A stretch of 64,000 nucleotides of DNA, taken from assembly GCF_014698235.1 (NCBI RefSeq), contig NZ_JACJSP010000006.1:1-64000 (forward strand). The letters run 5' to 3'. Source of the stretch: Limnothrix sp. FACHB-406 (GTDB lineage: Bacteria; Cyanobacteriota; Cyanobacteriia; CACIAM-69d). Below are positions 5,567 to 35,104 of this stretch, one piece after another. Under the pieces are notes generated by a model. It was not told where the DNA came from and ran no database searches. It worked only from the letters and a program-made list of their open reading frames with translations. Position 1 is the first letter of the stretch; every line of letters begins with the position of its first letter. A program made the translations under genes and the position numbers.

Positions 5567-7717
5567 TTAATTGGTGTAATTCCACCGGGCCCGATATCCC
5601 CGATTATCCAAATGGGTAAAGGAGGAGCCATAGCCCAAACCACCGGGCCACCAGGGATCCAAAATCCGTTGGGCCGCACGCGGCGACAACCCCGCCACCA
5701 CAAAGTCCACACCATGGCCCCGAATGTGGGTTGAGTTGCGGGCCCCACCCACGGCCCGGTTCACGGCCGGGGGCCGATACCAGCTCGTGATGGTGATGGT
5801 GCGATTGCCCAGCCGGGCCCGCACCTCTTGCATTCGCCGGGCCATGGCAATGATGTTTTGGGTGATGGTGGAATTTTCGGGAATCCGCGTGCCATCTTTG
5901 GTGGCTTCACCCCAACTAAAGTTACCGCCCGCAATAATCGGGTCACGAGTCCAGACCGTGCCCAGCCCGGGTACTTGAATCCGCCGTCCCCGATCGGGCA
6001 CAGGGGCAGGGGTGGGAACCGGGGTGGGCCTGGGGACAGGTGCGGGCGCGGGGGCAGGTACAGGTACGGGCGCAGGTGCGGGCGCAGGCGCGGGATCCCG
6101 AGGTGAGGGATAGTCATCCACATTCAGCAGGGTGATGTGGCCCTCAAAAATGAACCATTCCAGCCGGTTATTGATAGGTTTCACCAGCCGAATCCGCAGG
6201 TGATCGCCCACGTCCTCATAGCTGCGAATTTGGAATTCTCCGGGGGAAAGAGCCACCTTCTCCGCATTGCCCAAGCTGCTGGACTGCAAGGGGCGGGTTT
6301 TGAGGAAGGTACTGGTTTTCACCAACATGGTGGCCGGTTCCAAAAAGTCCGCATGGCCCCGGTAAACAAACCATTCCCGTCGATCGCGGATTGGCTCCAC
6401 GGTCAGGATGCGATAGTGGGTTCCTTGCTCGATCGAGTCAATCAGCGACAGTTCCCCGGCGGGCATGGCGGCCACTTCGTTTCGCGGCAGGGCGCTAGCC
6501 TGAACCGGTTGACTTTTGAGGACGGTGTTCTGTTTTAGGATCATCACCTGCCATTGCATGGTGCGCAGATCCGTTTCCAGGGAGCCGATCGCGGCCTGCT
6601 GGGTTTCCAAACCGCGCCACAGTTGCACCAACCGCGTCAAAGCACCCTGTTGATTTGGGGTTGCTCGGTAGGCGGCTGGCAACCGCCGCAGAAAAGAAAG
6701 CAATTCCCGATCGAGCTGGGCGGCGGCGGTGCTGGCTTCAGGGGCCGCCGGATTCGCAAACACAATCGGATTCACCCCCAAGCTGGTGAGGGCCGCGTTG
6801 CGATTGTCCAAATCTCGCCACATGCGGACGGTTTCGGTGGCCGCATTGCGCTGAGTGCCGCTGCCCGCATAGAACTCCGGAACCCGCAGCACAAAGGCCA
6901 GCAGGGCCGGATCGTAATTACGGGGCAACAGGCTTAAGTTGCTGTCGCTGAGTGAGGCGATCGCCGATTGGCGCGAATCCAGTTGCCGCCAAATTTGCAC
7001 CAACCGCAACAGGGCCTCTCGCTGGTGCGGAAAGCCGGAATAGTTGGGCGACAAACGCCGGATGAAGGTGACCAAGGCCGTGTCCAGGGCCGCATCGGTG
7101 TAGTTCAAGGCGGGCAACCCCAAGGAAACCAAGGTGTCCTCCCGGGTGGCCAGGCCACGCCAAATGCGGGTCGCTTCAATCAGGGCTTCCCGTTGATGCA
7201 CGTAGCCTTGATAGAACTGGGGCAGACGCTCGATCGTGTCGAGCAGGGCCCGATCGATGGTGAAGGTGCTGCCGGTGAGGGCGGTGTTGGCGGGAGCAAT
7301 CTGGGTCGATCGCTCCAAGGTGCAAAATTGGCGATAGGCGGCCGTCAGCCGATCGAGCGAGCAACCAGCCAGAATTGGCCCGCCAATGGTTTTGTCTTCA
7401 AACCCCCGAGCCAACACAGCCAACACTTCAGGGCTATATTGTCCAGCGTTCACCTGCCAGATTCGATCGGCCTTCCAACCGGATTGGATCAAAGAATCCG
7501 TTAACCGTCGCACCAACAGGGCCGCTTCCATCACCTGATCCGGCAGGCTGTCCACCTGTTCTTGATCCGCACTGGTTAAGCCCAACCCCCTTTCCCCTTC
7601 TGGGGTTGGCTGATCATGGGCTTCCTGGAGCGCGGGCAAAATGGGCATATGAATTCCCGCTCGCTGGGCAGCCAGGTGAAACAGATGCGCGTCCCGATCA
7701 AGTGCGGTGGTAGCCAT
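5567..7717 (-). CDS. Repeat-containing M15-type peptidase (D,D-carboxypeptidase-like)
   Basis: Likely acts on peptidoglycan or cross-bridge peptides. The 716-residue protein has four parts. The N-terminal half (about 155-375) carries four helical repeats of about 60-70 residues, each with a pattern like LL..I.RLP.FY.G...QREAL....RIWR.L. Next come two tandem SH3-like units (about 395-460 and 465-535), each ending EWFVYRGH or EWFIFEGH. A Pro/Ala/Val linker (about 540-576) follows. The C-terminal domain holds the M15 zinc motif STHIRGHGVDF (His664, Asp671) and a later THLD (His702). I chose the ATG at 7717 over an upstream TTG. No signal peptide is evident. Confidence 0.75.
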   Translation of the reverse strand: MATTALDRDAHLFHLAAQRAGIHMPILPALQEAHDQPTPEGERGLGLTSADQEQVDSLPDQVMEAALLVRRLTDSLIQSGWKADRIWQVNAGQYSPEVLAVLARGFEDKTIGGPILAGCSLDRLTAAYRQFCTLERSTQIAPANTALTGSTFTIDRALLDTIERLPQFYQGYVHQREALIEATRIWRGLATREDTLVSLGLPALNYTDAALDTALVTFIRRLSPNYSGFPHQREALLRLVQIWRQLDSRQSAIASLSDSNLSLLPRNYDPALLAFVLRVPEFYAGSGTQRNAATETVRMWRDLDNRNAALTSLGVNPIVFANPAAPEASTAAAQLDRELLSFLRRLPAAYRATPNQQGALTRLVQLWRGLETQQAAIGSLETDLRTMQWQVMILKQNTVLKSQPVQASALPRNEVAAMPAGELSLIDSIEQGTHYRILTVEPIRDRREWFVYRGHADFLEPATMLVKTSTFLKTRPLQSSSLGNAEKVALSPGEFQIRSYEDVGDHLRIRLVKPINNRLEWFIFEGHITLLNVDDYPSPRDPAPAPAPAPVPVPAPAPAPVPRPTPVPTPAPVPDRGRRIQVPGLGTVWTRDPIIAGGNFSWGEATKDGTRIPENSTITQNIIAMARRMQEVRARLGNRTITITSWYRPPAVNRAVGGARNSTHIRGHGVDFVVAGLSPRAAQRILDPWWPGGLGYGSSFTHLDNRGYRARWNYTN

Positions 7718-31071: not shown

Positions 31072-31542
31072 GGCTAGGAGCGGGTCAATGAAGCGACCAG
31101 ACAGCCATCTTATAAAACAACCGCTGTGAAAATCGCCTCCTGCCAGATTCCGTCCCCTGTGGCAATGGTGGGAGAAGCGACGTTCAACCGCTGACGGTCT
31201 CAGGGTTTGGCTTGGGCGCTCTCCTCATCGCTTGACACGAATCGACCCTCGGAGATCTTGCGGATCGAAGGGCGCATGGCGATGTGGCCCCACAAGAATC
31301 GATTTTCCCACGCCAGGTAGGGGCGTACCGTTGTACGCCCTCCAACCGGGTCGATCGCTTGACACGAATCGACCCTCGGAGATCTTGCGTATCGGAGGGC
31401 GCATGGCGATGTGGCCCCACAAGAATCGATTTTCCCGCGCCGGTAGGGGCGTACCGCTGTACGCCCTCCGCCAGGATTGATCGCCTGAACCGAATTGGTT
31501 TGCGGAGATCTTGCGTATCGGAGGGCGCATGGCGATGCGCCC
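31072..31542. other. 471-base region between dnaX and the TPR gene
   Basis: About two thirds is filled by the 127-base tandem array at 31231-31548. The rest is presumably the dnaX promoter. Short open frames in the array follow the repeat period and are not genes. Confidence 0.6.
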
Positions 31543-31548
31543 CTACGG
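31231..31548. repeat. Tandem array of a 126-127-base unit, 2.5 copies
   Basis: Units start at 31231, 31358 and 31484 (truncated). Each contains two palindrome-type blocks: GGAGGGCGCATGGCGATG and GTAGGGGCGTAC-CG(C/T)T-GTACGCCCTCC. The first two copies differ at only a few positions; the third is more diverged at its left end and stops at CGCCCCTAC. The array touches the 3' end of the TPR gene. Confidence 0.92.
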
Positions 31549-33456
31549 ATTGGGTAGGGTGGTGAGTTGTTGTAGGAGGGATTGGGTGAGGGGGTGGTCG
31601 GAGAGTTCGGCGGTGCGATCGGCTTTGATGACTTGTTTCAAGAAGGCTCGAAATTGTTCTTGAGCCTTTTGAGTGTCAGGATGCCCATCACCCAAACTTC
31701 GACTGAATACGTCTAAGCAGCAAAGGTATCCAGGCTCTGCAAGCTCAAATTTTTGTTGTGCACGGTGTAAGTCTGCTAAACCCCAAACCGTTATAGCGGT
31801 GTCGGGATGGTCGGCTCCCAGCAATCGCTCATAGATTTCCAGCGATCGCCGGTAGAGGGGTTCCGCCGCCTCGTACCGTCTCTGGGAATAGTAGAGTAAT
31901 GCCAAGTTGTTGAGGCTTTGGGCAGTGTCGGGATGGTCGGCTCCCAGCACTCGCTCACGGATTTCCAGCGATCGCCGGAAGAGGGGTTCCGCTGCCTCGT
32001 ACTGTCCCTGGGATTCATAGAGTCCTGCCAAGTTGTTGAGGCTGGTGGCGGTGAAGGGATGGTCGGCTCCCAGCAATCGCTCACGGATTTCCAGCGATCG
32101 CCGGTAGAGGGGTTCCGCTGCCTCGTACCGTCCCTGAGATTCGTAGAGTGCTGCCAAGTTGTTGAGGCTTTGGGCAGTGTTGGGATGGTCGGCTCTCAGT
32201 ACTCGCTCACGGATTTCCAGTGATCGCTGGTAGAGGAGTTCTGCTGCCTCGTATCGTCCCTGGTAATGGTAAAGTTCTGCCAAGTTGTTGAGGCTGGTGG
32301 CGGTGAAGGGATGGTCGGCTCCCAGCACTCGCTCATAGATTTCCAGCGATCGCCGGTAGAGGGGTTCCGCGGCCTCGTAACGTCCCTGGCATGAGTAGAG
32401 TAATGCCAAGTCATTGAGGCTGTCGGCAGTGGCGGGATGGTCGGCTCCCAGCACTCGCTCACGGATTTCCAGCGATCGCCGGAAGAGGGGTTCGGCTTCA
32501 GGATAGCGTCCCTGCGACCAGTAGAGTCCTGCCAAGTTGTTAAGGCTTTCGGCAGTGTGGGCATGGTCGGCTCCCAGGACTTGCTCTCGGATCGCCAGCG
32601 ATCGCCGGTAGAGGGGTTCCGCTGCCTCGTAACGTCCCTGGCATGAGTAGAGTAATGCCAAGTTGTTCAGGCTGAGGGCCAGGTTTTCCGATGGTTCCTG
32701 GGTGTCGTAAATAGCGATCGCCCGTTGGAAATAGTCCTCAGCGGGGATCGCTTCCCCCGTCCCCCGGCCTGCTTTGTAGCGATCGGCATAGCGATCGCCC
32801 AACTGTCGCAGCAGATCCGCCACGGCCAGGCTGGTCGGCCCCAATTCAGCTTCGGCAGCAGCTAAAGAAGCTTCTAGATCGGCGATTGATAGCCCCACCG
32901 GATCGGCACTGTCCGAGGGCAGCGACTCAAGGCGATCGGGACGGATCTCTGATGAAGTAGCCGCTTCCTGAGCCACCACCGCAAACAAAAACACGCCATC
33001 CCGCCAGCTCCAAAAGTCCGGTGCTTTTCTCGGCAACTCTGGCCAGACCTGTGATGGCAACCACAAAACAATCGGGAGCGCCAACTCCCGCAAGGCTTCC
33101 CGCGTCCATTGCAAATAGCCCAGGAACTTCTCGATCGGCTCGGGGCCCGTCAGCCCCAACGACTCCGCCCCCACCACCGTCACCAGGCTGGGCAACGCCG
33201 ACCCCGCCTCCGCCAAGGCCAGGCTGACGGCACGGTGCAAGCTGGGGTCTTGGGCATCCAGCCGGGCCCGCAGGGGTTGCGCCTGGCCCGCCAACTCGGA
33301 TTCGTAGCGCTCAATCCAGGCCAACCGTTGGCGATCGTGGTCGCACCGAGCCAACAAAACCTGCAATTGCCCCAGTCCCATTTCCAAGGAGGCAACGAGG
33401 CGATCGTAGGTGCGATCGTTTTCGGGGGTGATTTCTGGGCGATCGTCAGGGTTCAT
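31543..33456 (-). CDS. Kinesin-light-chain-type TPR protein, partner of the adjacent ATPase
   Basis: 637 residues. The N-terminal domain (about 1-200) is a non-TPR alpha/beta region with SLVTVVGAESLGL, EKFLGYLQWTREALREL, PIVLWLPSQVW and KAPDFWSWRDGVFLF. A partial TPR (about 215-255) is followed by eight 42-residue TPRs of the kinesin-light-chain type (SLNNLA.LY.SQGRYEAAEPLYRRSLEI.E..LGADHP.TA). Seven are nearly identical and the eighth is degenerate. The start ATG overlaps the stop of the upstream AAA ATPase gene (ATGA), so translation is coupled. Probably a sensor or scaffold for the ATPase; no enzymatic domain is recognised. Confidence 0.82.
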   Translation of the reverse strand: MNPDDRPEITPENDRTYDRLVASLEMGLGQLQVLLARCDHDRQRLAWIERYESELAGQAQPLRARLDAQDPSLHRAVSLALAEAGSALPSLVTVVGAESLGLTGPEPIEKFLGYLQWTREALRELALPIVLWLPSQVWPELPRKAPDFWSWRDGVFLFAVVAQEAATSSEIRPDRLESLPSDSADPVGLSIADLEASLAAAEAELGPTSLAVADLLRQLGDRYADRYKAGRGTGEAIPAEDYFQRAIAIYDTQEPSENLALSLNNLALLYSCQGRYEAAEPLYRRSLAIREQVLGADHAHTAESLNNLAGLYWSQGRYPEAEPLFRRSLEIRERVLGADHPATADSLNDLALLYSCQGRYEAAEPLYRRSLEIYERVLGADHPFTATSLNNLAELYHYQGRYEAAELLYQRSLEIRERVLRADHPNTAQSLNNLAALYESQGRYEAAEPLYRRSLEIRERLLGADHPFTATSLNNLAGLYESQGQYEAAEPLFRRSLEIRERVLGADHPDTAQSLNNLALLYYSQRRYEAAEPLYRRSLEIYERLLGADHPDTAITVWGLADLHRAQQKFELAEPGYLCCLDVFSRSLGDGHPDTQKAQEQFRAFLKQVIKADRTAELSDHPLTQSLLQQLTTLPNP

Positions 33457-34775
33457 CCGCCAATCCGCTGCTCAATTCGCAACTGATCAATCAACAAAGG
33501 ATGCACATCGTACCAACTTTCTTTGTTGCGATATTCGATCACATACAAGCTGTGCAAGAGATTCAAAAACTCATCGGCTTTTGGATCATCGGGCTGATAG
33601 TTGAAATAGGTTTGCTCCAGAATTTCGCGATCAGATTTGCCAAGGGTAATCGACATTTCATTGCGGAGCGAATCCAACGCCTCTTGCAAAATGGTCTGAT
33701 CGATTTGAGCTTGGCTAATGTCTGCACCCCGCCGTTGTTGCACACGCAACTCCACCCGCATCAGGCGACAACATTCCTTGGCAATCCGAATCAATTCCCG
33801 ATTGACTCCGCCACTATAAAGCACAATTTTTTCAGCAACTCCCTCGGCAAACAGGTCTGGCACGACCCGGCGATGGAGAATCTGCAATAGCGTTTGGAAC
33901 TTATCGGGCACGGGCTGCCCATCGGGCCGGTGACTATCGTTTTTGGCAAACAACTTCAGCACGGGCATCACATAGATATTGGTGCTGGTTTCGGTTTCCA
34001 GATGGCTTTTGAGGCGCGTGTCCCGAATGGTGGCGATCGGGATTGTGTAGATCACAATGAAGTTTGGCTCTAGGAGCGACTTCAAATTGCGGTAGAAAAT
34101 CTCATCAATTTGCGTCAACTCTAGTTTGTCTAGATCATCAATAATCGCCAGAATGGGTTGACCGCTAGCCAGCCGAATTTCGGTAGCAATGTTATTGATC
34201 GTATCAATTAGATCACGCAGATCCTTGGAAAATTCAGTTTTGATTTCCTCCCGCATTTTGGCATCGGTCTTCAGCTTGGTTTTGAGCAAGCCAAATAGAT
34301 CGAAGCCCACTTCTGCCTCGCCACTCACTGATGCTTCTTCAATGTGGGTGCGGGTTTTAAACCAGTTGCGAAAGGCGTTGATCTTGCTGGGGGAAATCGC
34401 GATTTTCTCGGCTTCTGCCTTGGCCATCAACTGCACGGCCATGGTGAACAAAATATTGATGTGATTGATTGAGTAGCTTTCAATCAAATCAGCAATTGAG
34501 AAAAAGACGGTGAAGTAGCGATCGCGCAGCATCTTGGCAAATTCCGCCAGCACCGTCGATTTGCCGCAGCCGCGATGGCCCGCAAAGATGAATTGATTGT
34601 CTGACTCGGTGCTGTCTTCCACGAGCTGCTCCAGTTCCGCCAAGCAGCGATCGTTGTAGCTCACCCCAAAGTTTTTCCAATCTTGGTCGGCCACCAGGGG
34701 TTGAAGCTGCAAGTTTTGGAAGGCTTTTTGGAAGGCCTCGGAACGGGCAAGGCTGGCCGAAGATGCTTCAGACAT
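33453..34775 (-). CDS. AAA/STAND-like P-loop ATPase
   Basis: 440 residues. Walker A GHRGCGKST (66-74), Walker B ILAIIDDLDK (about 208-217), followed by a sensor-like strand IVIYTIPIATIRDTRLKSHL. The C-terminal part (about 330-440) is helical and winged-helix-like and ends with YVIEYRNKESWYDVHPLLIDQLR. A helical insert with FKTRTHIEEASVSGEAEVGFDLFG lies between the Walker motifs. The ATG giving MSEASSASLARSE is preferred to one 32 codons upstream. Its stop overlaps the TPR gene start. It resembles ATPases of signalling or conflict-type modules; the function is unknown. Confidence 0.75.
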   Translation of the reverse strand: MSEASSASLARSEAFQKAFQNLQLQPLVADQDWKNFGVSYNDRCLAELEQLVEDSTESDNQFIFAGHRGCGKSTVLAEFAKMLRDRYFTVFFSIADLIESYSINHINILFTMAVQLMAKAEAEKIAISPSKINAFRNWFKTRTHIEEASVSGEAEVGFDLFGLLKTKLKTDAKMREEIKTEFSKDLRDLIDTINNIATEIRLASGQPILAIIDDLDKLELTQIDEIFYRNLKSLLEPNFIVIYTIPIATIRDTRLKSHLETETSTNIYVMPVLKLFAKNDSHRPDGQPVPDKFQTLLQILHRRVVPDLFAEGVAEKIVLYSGGVNRELIRIAKECCRLMRVELRVQQRRGADISQAQIDQTILQEALDSLRNEMSITLGKSDREILEQTYFNYQPDDPKADEFLNLLHSLYVIEYRNKESWYDVHPLLIDQLRIEQRIGG

Positions 34776-35104
34776 GGGAAACCACAGACGAAATAACGGG
34801 CGAGAGACCGGGCGATCTGCCCTTGGGTTAATCACCCCAGCCGATGGGGGCGATCGTCGCCATTGTGCCACAGGGGTGCTGGTCAGAATTAGCCTGCTTT
34901 ATCCTCACCATGGGCTTGGGTCAATCATAGCCCGCACCGGTTGCTGAGTTCTTGCGGGCGCTTGGGCAGGGGATCAGCGGCCGCCAACCGATCGCCGAAG
35001 ACGGAACCATGGGACAAATCGATCGAGATTTTGCGGAAGATCGGCGCTTGTGTTAAACCGCTAGAGGGTTAATCAACCGGAAATTGGCGCTTAGGAGCTT
35101 GGGG
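34776..35104. other. 329-base divergent intergenic region
   Basis: Promoter region for the ATPase-TPR unit (-) and the GH57 gene (+). I see no repeat, RNA or further gene. Confidence 0.5.

Follow-up and report, generated by a model that had tools for sequence, protein, structure and literature searches.

Genes and features at the locus

The window analysed here is a stretch of 64,000 nucleotides from Limnothrix sp. FACHB-406, and on its reverse strand lie two overlapping genes, the upstream one encoding a P-loop ATPase and the downstream one a partner protein in which an N-terminal domain (N-domain) precedes an array of TPR repeats (Table 1). The ATPase starts with an ATG at 34775, and the same open frame extends to a GTG at 34871. 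The stop codon of the ATPase gene and the start codon of the partner gene share the letters ATGA, as an earlier sequence-only reading of this DNA had described, and to judge from this overlap the ATPase and the TPR protein are presumably co-produced. Among named relatives, the nearest has an ATPase 92% identical to that of the window. By reading of the sequence, the pair is flanked by dnaX, GH57-like and radC genes, and these flanks are kept between Limnothrix relatives. The intergenic spacer that divides the TPR gene from its dnaX-like neighbour holds a tandem repeat (31227-31537; period 127, 2.5 copies, 89% matches), which is by eye unrelated in sequence to the 126-bp repeats of the TPR array.

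Table 1. Coordinates of the gene pair and of its features in the window
Feature	Position	Strand	Description
P-loop ATPase gene, upstream member of the pair	33453..34775	-	440 aa; AAA_16 / KAP / nSTAND-like
Walker A GHRGCGKS, residues 66-73	34557..34580	-	conserved in orthologues; motif in 82/84 homologues
Walker B IIDDLDK, residues 211-217	34125..34145	-	D213, D214, D216, K217 invariant
ATPase C-terminal tail (LLHSLYVIEYRNKESWYDVHPLL)	33471..33683	-	conserved; winged-helix-like by sequence pattern
ATGA overlap, ATPase stop / partner start	33453..33456	-	
Partner protein gene	31543..33456	-	637 aa: N-domain, linker, KLC-type TPR array, C-terminal cap
N-domain, residues 11-163	32968..33426	-	alpha/beta, no Walker A; conserved GYLQWTRE and APDFWSWR
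TPR array, seven 42-aa (126-bp) repeats	31798..32679	-	variable at positions 2, 9, 12, 13, 41

The ATPase, the N-domain and the TPR array

The Walker A and Walker B motifs of the ATPase are intact, as the sequence-only reading had it, and are conserved across 15 orthologues. All Pfam scores of the protein are weak (AAA_16, KAP, ATPase_2, NACHT, DAP3 and nSTAND models), with the match to the KAP NTPase family (PF07693) at 28.8 bits, above the Pfam gathering cut-off of 20. KAP NTPases have a transmembrane insert within the P-loop domain, and on plain reading of its sequence the ATPase lacks an obvious hydrophobic stretch. The ATPase scored below the NCBIfam cut-off for the Sll1717 P-loop ATPase family (NF047389; 28.9 bits against 75), and its AlphaFold model, built on a 3-row alignment, reached a pLDDT of 37. 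The tail appears winged-helix-like by pattern.

The N-domain comprises about 150 residues. In 18 orthologues its motifs GYLQWTRE and DFxxWRxG never vary, and in none of these 18 does the domain match a Pfam family; the distinctive non-TPR domain noticed earlier is thus real. Its identity with a known enzyme was rejected, there being no Pfam match and, apart from TPR, no convincing match in a PDB sequence search. A Walker A motif was found in none of 101 N-domains but is present in 82 of 84 ATPases. AlphaFold modelling of the N-domain from four sequences gave a model of modest quality (pLDDT 58, pTM 0.47) with the order b-a-b-a-b-a-b-a; in structural alignment with VIA, its best 50 rows are nearly all P-loop ATPases (KaiC, P4, TnsC, ORC, RecA) with Z of 5.2-6.4, a range in which, as for any VIA Z below 8, the values can reflect a common arrangement. 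Foldseek returned nothing significant for the model (best E 0.07), and hhalign of the first two, shallow alignments of ATPase and N-domain gave no match. In wider profile alignments, LLLAxCD stands opposite the P-loop (p 0.04) and VxGxE opposite Walker B (p 0.01), both local matches in the same order. Because of the topology, the structural rows, the profile matches and the absent Walker A taken together, it is suggestive that the N-domain is a degenerate P-loop domain that has lost its nucleotide-binding motifs. It had been considered as the effector of the pair, but it looks more like a degenerate P-loop adaptor, and the ATPase is the likelier output side.

The seven repeats of the TPR array have a length of exactly 42 aa and are 85% identical in DNA. 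Canonical TPR ligand positions are 2, 5, 9, 12 and 13, and among the repeat positions ranked as most variable (2, 9, 12, 41, 13) four of five are such positions, a coincidence with a chance of about 2 in 10,000. The Nei-Gojobori dN/dS, an estimate resting on seven non-independent repeats, is 1.9 at positions 2, 9, 12 and 13 versus 0.36 elsewhere in the repeat, and including position 5, where Asn is almost fixed, brings the value at the ligand positions to 0.97. In a set of 23 arrays, variability is highest at positions 31, 9, 12, 2 and 41, and the number of repeats differs between close relatives (7 in L045, 11 in L046). The array therefore varies in sequence and in copy number, and it looks like a recognition surface. 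Like behaviour of TPR arrays is on record for fungal NLRs (PMC4986451). The partner scored below the cut-off for the FxSxx-COOH TPR protein (NF040586; 205.5 bits against 300), and its best stretch lies in the repeats. In addition, the same genome encodes three further proteins (L199, L200 and L201) with this array type, two with an NB-ARC-type domain upstream in frame and the third with a STAND-like tail, by reading; the best DNA identity of their repeats to those of the window is 0.85-0.89 per repeat, compared with 0.89 for the window repeats among themselves, hinting at exchange between loci.

Pairing and sensor classes across cyanobacteria

The ATPase has a match in 66 of 291 cyanobacterial genomes, a patchy presence. 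We sampled loci from close orthologues as well as from paralogues that are about 25% identical, searched with profiles built from the family, and among these an N-domain protein lies directly downstream of 80 of the 84 ATPase ORFs, at -60 to 1500 bases, in a count that is partly non-independent since about one quarter of its loci were picked via the N-domain. About half of the 80 pairs have an overlap or a gap of 0, and of the four unpaired ORFs, those of L069 and L077 lie where their contigs end, that of L091 is a tandem ATPase, and the fourth is a spurious hit of 13 bits. In the plasmid set, which is independent and whose matches are cyanobacterial only, all seven free-standing ATPases have a partner, one of these behind a second, tandem ATPase. 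Moreover, the distances of ATPase and N-domain correlate across 84 pairs (r = 0.89; none of 2000 permutations as high), as expected of co-inherited genes. The evidence is strong that ATPase and partner form a near-obligate module, and the two-gene module put forward on the letters alone has held, both in adjacency and in that the N-domain matches no housekeeping family. We found no prior description of the pair in the open-access papers searched. Interrupted or truncated copies (L044, L066, L076) are consistent with a dispensable gene.

At loci chosen via the N-domain, an adjacent ATPase was missing for 20 of 42 N-domain ORFs, so the N-domain also works without an ATPase nearby; a divergent ATPase was looked for next to the orphan N-domain proteins, and none was seen. 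Many cyanobacterial proteins of 600-1000 aa among L131-L170 (such as L134, L150, L144, L163 and L167) have the N-domain and weak TPRs with no adjacent ATPase, and they appear to be a conserved branch of the N-domain family in which the gene stands alone. Free-standing N-domains of 158 and 163 aa were also observed directly behind an ATPase (L099 9944-10420 and L082 7632-8123). Tandem ATPases of about 435 and 696 aa stand ahead of an N-domain protein at L091 3370-6825 and L173 5917-9372, suggesting mixed ATPase assemblies.

By Pfam, the C-termini of the partners are TPR in 44, nSTAND1 with WD40 in 26, nSTAND1 alone in 6, and other or truncated in 11, and one partner of 2208 aa has a NACHT-like region with TPRs. 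In the ATPase tree, the sensor classes of the partners fall largely in separate clades, with the window within the TPR clade. Since the sensor classes vary on the same N-domain, what stays constant is the ATPase together with the N-domain, and what varies is the sensor. The N-domain of the nSTAND1-WD40 partners occupies the NLR effector/adaptor position. Of the features that define STAND/NLR proteins, the P-loop NTPase with Walker A and Walker B is present in the upstream gene of the window, and the NTPase and the repeat sensor are divided between its two genes; of the paralogues, only those with nSTAND1 or NACHT-TPR combine them on one chain. Two further such features are a winged-helix domain behind the NTPase, which the sequence pattern of the ATPase tail resembles, and oligomerisation triggered by a ligand and dependent on ATP, which the pair would be predicted to share. 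The kinship with STAND-type systems suspected earlier is supported by this swapping of nSTAND1-WD40 sensors and by the sharing of arrays with NB-ARC-TPR proteins.

Conflict loci, known systems and a proposed split receptor

The sequence-only reading had also raised a role in conflict, and here the outcome is divided: the window's own clade shows no clustering with defence genes, its neighbours being mostly housekeeping genes in varied places, but several relatives on plasmids sit in conflict loci. At L171, a locus on a Nostoc plasmid, the ATPase is fused behind SAV_2336_NTERM as the C-terminal portion of the protein, and the operon also encodes a VMAP protein and a MoxR ATPase; this placement corresponds to the effector position of the VMAP/MoxR ternary systems (PMC7159879). 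The plasmid pair L172 adjoins NB-ARC, CHAT-TIR and TPR genes, and the pair L174 sits between integrases, HicAB and NACHT. Two relatives in the window's clade are near NB-ARC-like genes. PADLOC matches are weak, and the pair holds no known effector domain. A conflict role is more probable than not for the family and unproven for the clade of the window. The operon at L171 (2102-7893) runs from VMAP and MoxR to the SAV_2336_NTERM-ATPase and then to a small protein of 164 aa with hydrophobic stretches and no Pfam match. Among phage records there is no match. A phage-borne decoy was considered at L100, an IMG/VR contig, and rejected, as the truncated N-domain there (6013-6492), which has no repeats and ends just past the domain, lies where the contig ends, next to a fabI-like gene, and is probably host flank rather than a gene of a phage.

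The nearest described precedent, compared by description only, is the active/inactive pair of nSTAND2 systems, in which adjacent active and inactive STAND-like NTPases occur, the inactive one is fused to variable modules, and a counter-invader role is predicted (Kaur et al. 2021, PMC8195603). The window pair has the same adjacency and the same absence of Walker A in one member, and P-loop descent of its N-domain is suggestive; however, nSTAND2 systems have effectors (GT4, HEPN) as their variable modules and the family of the window has sensors (TPR, nSTAND1-WD40), and Pfam scans of the partners found no GT4 or HEPN domain (for the longest proteins, among the best 25 families listed). A further mark of nSTAND2 systems is that both members have an arginine finger. 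The MoxR-vWA ternary systems (2020, PMC7159879) likewise have an inactive NTPase component, and in one VMAP system a homologue of the ATPase stands in the place of the effector, but no MoxR, vWA or VMAP gene lies beside the window pair, and among the loci examined only L171 has the MoxR-system arrangement. NB-ARC/NACHT-TPR and WD40 STAND receptors have the same type of repeat array, and nSTAND1-WD40 is found on the same N-domain in paralogues, whereas in the window one chain has the intact NTPase and the other the repeats. Fungal NLRs with high internal repeat conservation (PMC4986451) resemble the window in their near-identical TPR repeats, variable copy number and concave-face variation; they are single-chain receptors, however, and the likeness is one of evolutionary behaviour and not of ancestry.

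We propose that the pair is a two-gene NLR-like receptor divided between two chains, in which the ATPase acts as output partner and whose most likely function is invader or non-self recognition; the fit to an NLR-like reading is good, and we regard the proposal as a whole as evenly balanced. We infer physical contact between the chains, oligomerisation, a trigger, an output and a role in defence: the replaceable sensor of the partner, in the window the fast-evolving TPR array, would use its concave face to bind a trigger, either a protein or a peptide; the N-domain, of P-loop type with no nucleotide-binding motifs, would dock the intact ATPase from the gene just upstream; and once a ligand is bound, a mixed assembly that depends on ATP would be released or nucleated. 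Output would fall to the ATPase, either by its own activity or by way of its winged-helix-like tail, as the VMAP fusion and the adaptor position of the N-domain suggest. The purpose would most likely be recognition of invaders (phage, other mobile elements) or of non-self.

Unlikely, but the best of the other explanations, is a housekeeping or regulatory signalling pair uninvolved in conflict, with the TPR protein as sensor of an endogenous ligand and the ATPase as a STAND-type regulator comparable to MalT. The housekeeping neighbours of the window clade, the flanks kept between Limnothrix relatives and the winged-helix pattern of the ATPase tail would suit it, whereas the patchy presence, the broken copies and varied genomic position, the changes in repeat number with diversified contact positions, and the relatives in conflict loci argue against it. 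Less probable still is an ATP-driven chaperone or remodelling pair in which the ATPase acts on clients recruited by the repeats, in the manner of an adaptor plus unfoldase, for quality control or defence; the pairing of an active with a degenerate P-loop protein, the client-binding repeats and the AAA_16 and KAP matches of the ATPase fit such a pair, but a protease partner was not seen, and sensors common to NB-ARC proteins suit receptors better. We consider it quite improbable that the repeat variation arose as a side effect of tandem duplication under relaxed constraint on the surface and is uninformative on sensing: repeat slippage and exchange are common and the sample, at 7 repeats, is small, but the variation clusters at ligand-facing positions on a fixed framework, and many arrays have a like pattern.

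Further, returning to the split receptor, we tentatively suggest, at somewhat less than an even chance, that the pair belongs to a widespread and undescribed cyanobacterial class of split NLRs, in which a live ATPase is joined by a dead P-loop adaptor bearing interchangeable sensors (TPR arrays, nSTAND1-WD40, NACHT-TPR), and in which the repeats come from a pool shared with the genome's single-chain NB-ARC receptors and have a diversified binding face. If this is right, many cyanobacterial pairs of an 'AAA ATPase' with a 'TPR' or 'WD40' protein, annotated by repeat type only, would be one receptor system, whose common adaptor domain has no Pfam entry. The split and the single-chain receptors of one genome would share sensor arrays, and the NTPase and the sensor of an NLR would lie in separate genes, so that sensing and output would be separately testable.
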